Assembly: GCF_001921865.1 (NCBI RefSeq)
Contig: NZ_MSCT01000005.1
Coordinates: 375,001-439,000, forward strand
DNA: 64,000 nt
Origin: Pseudomonas chlororaphis
Lineage (GTDB): Bacteria; Pseudomonadota; Gammaproteobacteria; Pseudomonadales; Pseudomonadaceae
Direction of reading: 5' to 3'
A model generated the notes under the pieces. The model was given only the letters and a program-made list of their open reading frames with translations. It made no database searches and had not been told where the DNA came from. A program made the position numbers and the translations under genes. Position 1 is the first letter of the stretch; each line of letters begins with the position of its first letter. Positions 4,346 through 8,332 of this stretch are shown in pieces.

Positions 4346-4378
4346 TTGACGATATATACATAAAAGTCCAGTATGGAT
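4346..4378 (+). promoter_or_regulatory. Predicted promoter with DauR-type operator for the binding-protein gene
   Basis: A -35-like TTGACG (4346-4351), a 17-bp spacer and a weak -10 CAGTAT (4369-4374) precede the gene at 4461. The palindrome GTCCAgtaTGGAT (4366-4378) covers the -10. The same palindrome with the same upstream TAAAA sits over the dauB -10 at 8301-8313, so one regulator, most simply DauR, probably controls both units. Confidence 0.6.
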
Positions 4379-4460
4379 TTACAAGTACAAATAAAGCACT
4401 GCCCGTTTTCCTCCTTTCTTCTGTCTTGCCAAACCAACAACAACCCGCGAGAGAACGAAC

Positions 4461-5237
4461 ATGAAGAAACTCCCCCTCATCAGTGGCCTGGCCCTGAGCC
4501 TGTTGGCGTGCAGCAGCCTGTTCGCCGCCGAGAAAACCCTGCGCATTGGCATCGAGGCGGCTTATCCGCCGTTCGCCTCGAAAACCGACAAAGGTGAAAT
4601 CGTCGGTTTCGACTACGACATCGGCAATGCCTTGTGCGCGCAGATGCAGGTCAAGTGCCTATGGGTCGAGGGTGAATTCGACGGCCTGATTCCTTCGTTG
4701 AAAGTGAAGAAGATCGACATGGCGCTGTCGTCGATGACCATCAACGAAGACCGCAAGAAGTCGGTCGACTTTACCCACAAGTACTACTTCACTTCCTCGC
4801 GGCTGGTGATGAAGGAGGGCGCGACGGTCGATGACCAGTACGCCAGCCTCAAGGGCAAGAATGTCGGCGTGCAACGGGCGACCACCACCGATCGCTACGC
4901 CACCGAGGTGTTCGAGCCCAAGGGCATCAACGTCAAGCGCTATAGCAACAACGAAGAAATCTACATGGATTTGGCGGCCGGGCGTCTCGATGCGATTTTT
5001 GCCGACACTATTCCGCTGAATGACTTTCTGTCGATGCCGCGGGGCAAGGGCTATGGGTTTGTCGGGCCGGAGCTGAAGGACCCGAAATACGTGGGCGAGG
5101 GTGCAGGGATTGCGGTGCGCAAGGGCAATACCGAGTTGGTCAGCCAGTTGAACGCCGCCATCGATGGCATCCGTGCCAGCGGTGAGTACCAGAAGATTTC
5201 CGAGAAGTACTTCAAGGCCGATATCTACGGCGATTGA
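4461..5237 (+). CDS. Periplasmic lysine/arginine/ornithine-type amino-acid binding protein
   Basis: The 258-residue protein starts with a Sec signal (MKKLPL... to SLFAAE), cleaved near residue 22. The mature part is an ArgT/HisJ-like SBP_bac_3 fold with [21 protein letters not shown] and [16 protein letters not shown], the ligand-pocket segments seen in cationic amino-acid binding proteins. It should bind basic amino acids for an ABC importer whose membrane parts are not adjacent. The gene faces dauBAR, as the homologous gene does in P. aeruginosa, and shares an operator-like palindrome with dauB. D- or L-arginine is therefore the most likely ligand, by inference. Confidence 0.9.
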
Positions 5238-5263
5238 GGTTCTGCGGCGTCTGTAAGGACGCT

Positions 5264-5327
5264 ATCGCGAGCAAGCTCGCTCCTACAAGGACCACACATT
5301 CCCTGTAGGAGCGAGCTTGCTCGCGAT
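5264..5327. repeat. REPIN-like inverted repeat, copy 2
   Basis: Arms ATCGCGAGCAAGCTCGCTCC and the reverse complement surround a loop of about 20 bases. It lies between two convergent genes, where the hairpin could also end transcription from either side. Confidence 0.85.
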
Positions 5328-5341
5328 GCTTTCCTGGGCCC

Positions 5342-5968
5342 TCAGCCTTTCAATTCCTTCAGGTGCTTGTACACCGTCGCCCGCCCCATGTTCAGCACGT
5401 TGGCCACATAGTTGGCGGCGCTCTTGCCCTTGAACGCGCCTTCGGCGTGCAGCGCCAGCACCAGTTCGCGCTTGTGTTCGCGGGTCAGCAGGTTCAGGCC
5501 CAGCTGGCGCTCGCGCAGCCAGTTGTGCAGGAAGGTGTTGATGCGTTCCTGCCAGTCGTCGCGAAACAGCGAGTCCGGCTGCGGGATCAGTTTGCTCGGC
5601 GAGAGGAACAGGTCCAGCGCCGCCTTGGCATTCTCGAACAGTGAAATATTCAGGTTGATGCACAGCACCGCCAGCGGCTGGCCCGCGGCGTCGCGCAGCA
5701 CGCTGCTGAGGCTGCGGATCTTCTGGCCGTCCCAGTTGAGCTTTTCATAGGGGCCGATATTCCGTTCGTCGATGTCCTCGCCGAGCATGTCGTCCAGGGC
5801 CGCGTCGTCGCCGACCTCGCGCTTGGAGATGTTGTTGGCGATGTAGTCGATCTTCTGCGTGCGCAGGTCGTGGAGCACCACTTCGGCATGGGGAAAGAAC
5901 AGCGTGGCGATGGCGTCGGCGATCGCCCGGAAATTGTCCAGGACAGGGTCCTGCGCGGGTGCGGTCAT
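5342..5968 (-). CDS. dauR: Transcriptional regulator DauR (YheO-like PAS domain plus HTH)
   Basis: The product is 208 residues. Residues 10-120 form a YheO-like PAS sensor domain (FFPHAEVVLHDL, ISLFENAKAAL). The last 60 residues form a DauR-type helix-turn-helix (FKGKSAANYVANVLNMGRAT). In P. aeruginosa DauR represses the dau operon and is relieved by D-arginine. The ATG at 5968 is chosen because GGAG lies about 8 bp upstream and the PAS domain begins soon after. A 20-residue Pro-rich extension to 6028 is unlikely to be translated. It is the last gene of dauBAR, so repression is probably autoregulatory. Confidence 0.88.
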   Translation of the reverse strand: MTAPAQDPVLDNFRAIADAIATLFFPHAEVVLHDLRTQKIDYIANNISKREVGDDAALDDMLGEDIDERNIGPYEKLNWDGQKIRSLSSVLRDAAGQPLAVLCINLNISLFENAKAALDLFLSPSKLIPQPDSLFRDDWQERINTFLHNWLRERQLGLNLLTREHKRELVLALHAEGAFKGKSAANYVANVLNMGRATVYKHLKELKG

Positions 5969-7183: not shown

Positions 7184-7216
7184 TCGAGCCTCCGTAAATG
7201 AGGGGGAAATCAGGTT

Positions 7217-7309
7217 CTGTAGGAGCGAAGCTTGCTCGCGATCGATCTTGAACGTGCCGCCATGGTCCGTTCGGAACGACCTCATCGCGAGCAAGCTTCG
7301 CTCCTACAG
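7217..7309. repeat. REPIN-like inverted repeat, copy 3, inside the dau operon
   Basis: The arms are CTGTAGGAGCGAAGCTTGCT and its inverse, about 93 bp overall. Both arms carry the same extra A (GCGAAGCTTGC), so pairing is kept. It separates dauB from dauA and may stabilise or attenuate the downstream mRNA. Confidence 0.85.
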
Positions 7310-7317
7310 GTCAGGGT

Positions 7318-8271
7318 TCAGAGCGTGCCTTGCAAACGGTACAGGGCATTGGCCAGGGCGATGTCTTCCAGGCCCAGGCCGATGGAGCGGAAAAACACGT
7401 GGCGTTGTGGGTCCGGACGCTGGGCCTGGTCGCTGAGCAGTTCGGGCAGATCGCCGAGAATCGCCCGCTTGTCCCAGCCGTGCTGTTCGCCGGCGAGCAG
7501 CATCTCGCCGGCCGAGCCGGGAGTGGTCTGACGATAGTCGCAATACACCTGCATGTCCTTCAGCGCCGCCGGCGGCACTTCATGGGCCCGTGGCGCGTTG
7601 GTGCTGATGGAGGTGATCAGCGCCGGCTTGCTCAGGGTGCCCGGGTCGATCACCGGCCCGGCCGAAGAGGTGCAGAGCAGGATCACGTCGGCGTCTTCCA
7701 GGGCCTGCTGCAACTGGCTGACGACCTGCAGGCGCAGGTCGAGGGCTTGCAGGTGCGCGCCGGCCTCGGCGGGCTTCTGGCTCAGGCTGGGGGAATACAG
7801 GCGGATGGACTGCCACTCGCGCAGGTCTTTCACGTAATGCAGGTGCGCCTGCGCCACCGGCCCGCTGCCGATGATCGCCAGGCGCTGGGCCTCGGCCGGC
7901 GCCAGGGCGTCGACGGCCACGGCGGTGGTGGCCGCGGTGCGCGCGGTGGTCAGTTCGCCGGCGTCGCACAGCAGCAAGGGCTGGCCGCTGTCCATGGACA
8001 TCAGCAGGGTCCAGGCGGTGACTAGCGGGCCTTCGGCGCGAACGATATAGGGCGAGGTCTTGACCCCGTAGACCCGGTCTTCGGCCAGCACGCCCAGGTA
8101 GTTGATGAAGTCGCCGGCACCCTGGGGAAACTCCACCAGCTGTTGCGCCGGTTGCACCGCGAGCCCGGCCGCCAGGTCGCGGAACAGCTTGCGCAGGGTC
8201 TGCGGCACATCGACCTGCGCCAGCCATTGACGGGCTTGAGATTGGGCGATCACGTAAGGCGTGCTGGACAT
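7318..8271 (-). CDS. dauB: NAD(P)H-dependent anabolic L-arginine dehydrogenase DauB (ornithine cyclodeaminase family)
   Basis: The 317-residue protein belongs to the ornithine cyclodeaminase/mu-crystallin family, with the nucleotide-binding segment LAIIGSGPVAQAHL near residues 130-143 and the C-terminal FRSIGLGLEDIALA block. In the dau pathway it reductively aminates 2-ketoarginine to L-arginine, so DauA plus DauB convert D- to L-arginine. It is the first gene of the operon. Its ATG lies 30 bp from the predicted operator at 8301-8313. Confidence 0.9.
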   Translation of the reverse strand: MSSTPYVIAQSQARQWLAQVDVPQTLRKLFRDLAAGLAVQPAQQLVEFPQGAGDFINYLGVLAEDRVYGVKTSPYIVRAEGPLVTAWTLLMSMDSGQPLLLCDAGELTTARTAATTAVAVDALAPAEAQRLAIIGSGPVAQAHLHYVKDLREWQSIRLYSPSLSQKPAEAGAHLQALDLRLQVVSQLQQALEDADVILLCTSSAGPVIDPGTLSKPALITSISTNAPRAHEVPPAALKDMQVYCDYRQTTPGSAGEMLLAGEQHGWDKRAILGDLPELLSDQAQRPDPQRHVFFRSIGLGLEDIALANALYRLQGTL

Positions 8272-8300
8272 GCGGGCGCTCTCAAAGAATAAACTAATTT

Positions 8301-8332
8301 GTCCATTATGGACTTTTAGTTTTTATGGGCAA
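8301..8332 (-). promoter_or_regulatory. Predicted dauBAR promoter and DauR-type operator
   Basis: Reading on the minus strand: TTGCCC (8332-8327), a 16-bp spacer and CATAAT (8310-8305) form a fair sigma-70 promoter. The perfect palindrome GTCCAttaTGGAC (8301-8313) is centred on this -10, which is what a repressor site would look like. The match to the site upstream of the 4461 gene includes the preceding TAAAA. Confidence 0.65.

Follow-up and report, generated by a model that had tools for sequence, protein, structure and literature searches.

The 64-kb window analysed here (the whole stretch of Pseudomonas chlororaphis DNA, to which all positions refer) carries a dauBAR operon for catabolism of D-arginine (D-Arg) and D-lysine (D-Lys) and a gene for a stand-alone periplasmic cationic-amino-acid binding protein (SBP), and the promoters of both units contain the same palindrome, which is likely to be an operator of the regulator DauR (Table 1). 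The genes dauB, dauA and dauR form a minus-strand operon with dauR last, an order retained in most related loci, and this operon and the plus-strand SBP gene converge on each other, confirming the original prediction from this DNA that the two units face each other. DauA, a flavin adenine dinucleotide (FAD)-dependent D-arginine dehydrogenase, matches the P. aeruginosa enzyme over its full length (586 bits, residues 1-374). DauB belongs to the ornithine-cyclodeaminase (OCD)/mu-crystallin family, and in P. aeruginosa converts 2-ketoarginine to L-Arg (PMC5619798). In DauR the PAS_6 domain precedes the HTH_22 domain; these are the domains listed for the DauR protein PA3864, and gene order and domains together agree with those of dauB-dauA-dauR as PA3862-PA3864 (PMC7789669). 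A sequence search of DauR against solved structures found no resembling structure. The SBP scores 270.1 bits against the NCBIfam model TIGR01096, above the curated cut-off of 256.35, and matches solved LAO proteins with an E value of 4e-71, and so resembles the LAO/ArgT and HisJ binding proteins. In contrast to these, it stands alone under the predicted site of a regulator of D-amino-acid catabolism, and as no permease genes adjoin its gene, it probably serves the permease of another transporter.

Table 1. Genes, promoters, predicted operators and repeats at the SBP-dauBAR locus (positions in the window)
Feature	Position	Strand	Basis or remark
SBP, stand-alone periplasmic cationic-amino-acid binding protein, LAO/ArgT type	4461..5237	+	TIGR01096, LAO structure match
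dauR, YheO-like PAS_6 + HTH_22 regulator, ATG at 5968	5342..5968	-	PF08348 1e-25, PF13309 2e-17
dauA, FAD-dependent D-arginine dehydrogenase	6056..7183	-	P. aeruginosa DauA structures 3nyc/6p9d
dauB, OCD/mu-crystallin-family (ornithine-cyclodeaminase-family) reductase	7318..8271	-	PF02423 3e-34
SBP promoter: -35 TTGACG 4346-4351, 17 bp, -10 CAGTAT 4369-4374	4346..4374	+	-10 inside core
dauBAR promoter: -35 TTGCCC 8332-8327, 16 bp, -10 CATAAT 8310-8305	8305..8332	-	-10 inside core
Extended predicted operator, SBP: TATAC-ATAAAA-GTCCA-GTA-TGGAT-TTACAA-GTACA	4355..4389	+	core 4366-4378
Extended predicted operator, dauBAR: AAAAACTAAAA-GTCCA-TAA-TGGAC-AAATTA-GTTTA	8290..8324	-	core 8301-8313
REP-like inverted repeats	4209-4273, 5264-5327, 7217-7309		GTAGGAGCGAGCTTGCTCGCGAT type
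Perfect 13-bp inverted repeat with A/T tails	8345-8378		

The core of the palindrome, GTCCA-N3-TGGAY, reads GTCCAGTATGGAT in the SBP promoter and, on the dauB strand, GTCCATAATGGAC in the dauBAR promoter, and these are its only exact matches in the window. The two cores had been predicted to lie over -10 boxes, each behind a TTGNC-type -35 at 16-17 bp, and this is exactly the arrangement found, with the -10 occupying core positions 4-9 in both promoters and the TTGAC of the SBP -35 almost invariant across the SBP promoters compared. By chance, about 0.0004 occurrences of the core would be expected in two promoter stretches of 150 bp each. In the whole genome the 13-mer core occurs at 8 places; the most similar of the other matches, GTCCAATATGGAT at C2:148630, was rejected as a chance occurrence, as it lies inside a 504-aa frame and is not recovered by the extended profile described below. 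Conserved columns determined over 106 distinct promoters define a block larger than the one originally described, whose core stands but whose extent does not: numbered from the G of GTCCA, the conserved positions extend from -11 to +23, a total of 35 bp, and take in outer GTNNA elements that flank the core (TRTAC and GTACA at the SBP gene, GTTTA at dauB). The column consensus is TRTAC-NTAAAA-GTCCA-NTA-TGGAW-TTAYAA-GTACA for SBP promoters and AACTAAAA-GTCCA-TAA-TGGAC-AAATTA-GTTTA for dauB promoters, so that the TAAAA already noticed before both cores belongs to the conserved element. Bases in the spacer between promoter hexamers are ordinarily not conserved; at both of these promoters they are. 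In the dauB promoters of three loci (L153, L157, L166) a second core-like palindrome follows at +18/19 after the first (for example GTCCATAATGGAAAATTAATCCACTATGGA); we claim only a GTNNA half there and not a second complete tandem core, since the right arm of this palindrome falls on the probable Shine-Dalgarno sequence, GGAG.

Conservation upstream of orthologues had been set as a test of the shared site, and the site passed it with hardly an exception. The distinct promoters compared come from loci in public genomes and in genomes of the family. No more than one mismatch to the core is seen in 123 of 124 dauB promoters (the remaining one has two mismatches) and 135 of 136 SBP promoters, against 1 of 260 shuffled promoters. 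The sole SBP promoter without the site, L182, precedes a gene whose product has only 66% identity and is possibly a paralogue; its genome, G043, has no DauR match, which fits the missing site. The likeness of two -10 regions could in principle be accidental, or promoter elements alone could be what is conserved, as the -10 hexamers do lie inside the core. However, conservation extends past the hexamer to GTCCA and most of the TGGA arm, and to outer elements as far as 17 bp from the centre, and these conserved columns, together with the chance expectation, the shuffles and the absence of the site from genus genomes without DauR (see below), refute this explanation, to which we give a negligible probability. 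It is also highly improbable that the palindrome acts at the RNA level, be it as a terminator or as a small hairpin: a terminator scan flags a 5-bp stem with a T-rich flank at 8301-8313, but the overlap with the -10 in both units places the palindrome mostly upstream of the expected transcription start, the stem is of only 5 bp, and the outer bases are conserved as sequence and not as stem pairs.

Both sites are retained where the two units are unlinked, be it 2.4 Mb apart (G046, 1.53 versus 3.92 Mb), on separate contigs (G038, G067) or about 100 kb apart (g12 genomes), and both are present in the other genomes with dauBAR separate from the SBP gene. This points to selection by a diffusible protein rather than leftover ancestry of one locus. 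It also bears on whether DauR, binding both sites, might have a different effect at the SBP gene, through activation or through looping repression between the sites 4 kb apart. One protein with two sites on one molecule could form a loop in principle, but persistence of the sites with the units megabases apart or on other contigs implies that looping is not needed, and both sites lie over the -10, which is where direct blocking classically takes place; a different effect at the SBP gene is therefore quite unlikely. In several loci (L021, L022, L024, L026, L034, L036, L063, L082) dauBAR adjoins flavohaemoglobin-like and NorR-like genes instead of the SBP gene, and judging from these neighbours the dauBAR locus is relocated in the species concerned.

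The presence of the site follows that of DauR. Of 99 genus genomes searched for the extended pattern, exactly the 52 that encode a DauR of 83% identity or more contain it, against 0 of the 47 without a close DauR, although a formal p value for 52/52 versus 0/47 overstates the strength of this association because the genomes share ancestry. Family-wide, the core (at most two mismatches) precedes dauB in every locus examined that has a DauR of at least 82% identity and a full dauB promoter, including those of genus g9, in which G507 has the core and a DauA 93% identical to the P. aeruginosa enzyme, the closest among the genomes compared. The strict extended pattern occurs in only part of the family loci with DauR at this identity, and two stray matches to it fall in genomes without DauR (G137, G160). 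Wherever the site is retained, the helix-turn-helix (HTH) end of DauR is nearly invariant. In the g9 loci L197, L199, L201 and L202, dauA is found without adjoining dauB or dauR, and in the last two it is preceded by decayed sites (TTCCAGAATGGAA / CTCCAGAATGGAA), possibly the relic of a dauB promoter after loss of dauB.

Genome-wide scans for targets, made by pattern searches and with a 41-position sequence profile, point to a small regulon. In its own genome the profile recovered only the SBP and dauB sites, with E values of 1e-8 to 1e-9, the third match falling on the opposite strand at one of these sites, and in 22 further genomes, at E up to 1, it recovered the same two units, their opposite strands and one marginal match (G049). 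As the matches are restricted to two places, the predicted DauR regulon consists of two units; together with the 52/52 versus 0/47 distribution this supports the proposal that one repressor site is common to both units, with its repressor encoded in one of them. The palindrome might instead be bound by another regulator of arginine metabolism, ArgR or other, with DauR acting elsewhere. Both promoters drive genes for cationic amino acids, and ArgR is reported to act on dauBAR, which counts for this explanation. Against it, the distribution of the site coincides exactly with that of DauR, only two sites per genome are found where many more would be expected of a global arginine regulator, and a TGTCGC-type ArgR element was not found in either window promoter, so that we consider binding by such a regulator unlikely.

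We consider it likely, with a probability of roughly 0.87, that both palindromes are DauR operators and that they define a two-unit regulon coupling cationic-amino-acid uptake to catabolism of D-Arg and D-Lys. From these comparisons we infer that DauR is the bound protein, that it represses by binding and responds to a ligand, and that the SBP feeds D-Arg and D-Lys through the permease of another system. In the absence of substrate, DauR would occupy a near-palindrome of about 35 bp over the spacer, the -10 and the start region of both promoters, a position over the -10 that suggests repression by blocking of RNA polymerase, and would keep dauBAR and the SBP gene silent, along with dauR itself, which would be autoregulated because it lies within the dauBAR operon. 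Basal DauA would oxidise D-Arg or D-Lys to a 2-keto acid or related ligand sensed by the PAS domain, upon which DauR would release the DNA. As the SBP gene would be controlled together with dauBAR, uptake and the catabolic enzymes would then increase together. The original prediction had spoken of DauR repression by D-Arg, of which the repression stands and the wording is loose: in P. aeruginosa, Li, Yao and Lu reportedly described in 2010 that DauR represses dauB through operators verified by mutation, that DauR binding is relieved by 2-ketoarginine, that D-Arg and D-Lys act as inducers, and that ArgR adds activation required for full dauBAR expression.

Several observations weigh against the two-operator reading. 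Outside the core the dauB site is less symmetric than the SBP site, with a weak left outer element, and the role of the SBP in D-Arg transport is putative. In addition, no recognisable site lies close to the DauR homologues of 51-61% identity that occur in other gene contexts (L136, L139, L140, L192-L194), while their HTH resembles that of DauR, most closely in L136, L139 and L140. Nor was a site found with distant DauR homologues from outside the family. Counting for the reading, DauR homologues at 64% (L137) and 58% (L138) identity have a site of the same kind, located just before the first gene of operons (L137 5541-9781, L138 1455-5321) that contain an AstE-like gene, an SBP gene, a dauB-like gene and a dauR-like gene. 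In L137 a class-I-type aminotransferase takes the place of DauA, and in L138 no DauA was found.

Repression of dauBAR by DauR in P. aeruginosa is already known, while the SBP gene as a second target is, so far as we could find, unreported. A search of open-licence literature found no report of the SBP promoter as a DauR target, which is weak evidence of novelty, and nothing on DauR operators; DauR is named there as the regulator of dauBAR (PMC7789669), and the only mention of PA3865 is in a phenotype survey, as a binding protein of arginine/ornithine type (PMC2542419). The system described here has the same three genes and domains as that of P. aeruginosa PAO1, and the same core is present in g9 genomes including G507. 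It differs in the predicted operator, which was defined by comparing more than 120 promoters and has a greater length (35 bp), and in the addition of a second predicted target, the PA3865-type SBP promoter. A single-operon repressor would in this way become the regulator of a two-unit regulon with a precise operator, which extends the regulon and adds no new mechanism, and the orphan PA3865-type binding protein beside dauR would gain a likely role in uptake of D-Arg and D-Lys. The 35-bp element would also provide a well-defined predicted DNA site for YheO-like PAS_6/HTH_22 regulators, few of whose sites are known. Another regulator described as YheO-like PAS6-HTH is HeuR (Cj1387c) of Campylobacter jejuni. 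It has an N-terminal PAS domain and a C-terminal HTH, promotes the expression of genes for heme uptake and, in gel shifts, binds the promoter that it targets, while its exact site was not located and was still being sought by the authors (PMC5111405). More tentatively, and at less than even odds, DauR may bind a four-element operator (TRTAC-6-GTCCA-3-TGGAC-6-GTACA) as two cooperating dimers, and may control an SBP dedicated to D-Arg and D-Lys uptake that borrows the permease of another transporter. The inner and outer elements lie about one helical turn apart, and if this arrangement is true, the operator would be among the first defined for the YheO-like PAS_6/HTH_22 family.

Two kinds of repeat accompany these units. 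Inverted repeats resembling repetitive extragenic palindromes (REP) separate the converging SBP and dauR genes. They are found within dauBAR as well, in the dauB-dauA interval, and could there reduce dauA and dauR relative to dauB. Between the end of a DEAD-box helicase gene and dauB, the perfect 13-bp inverted repeat, which has A/T tails, resembles a two-way terminator immediately upstream of the dauB promoter.
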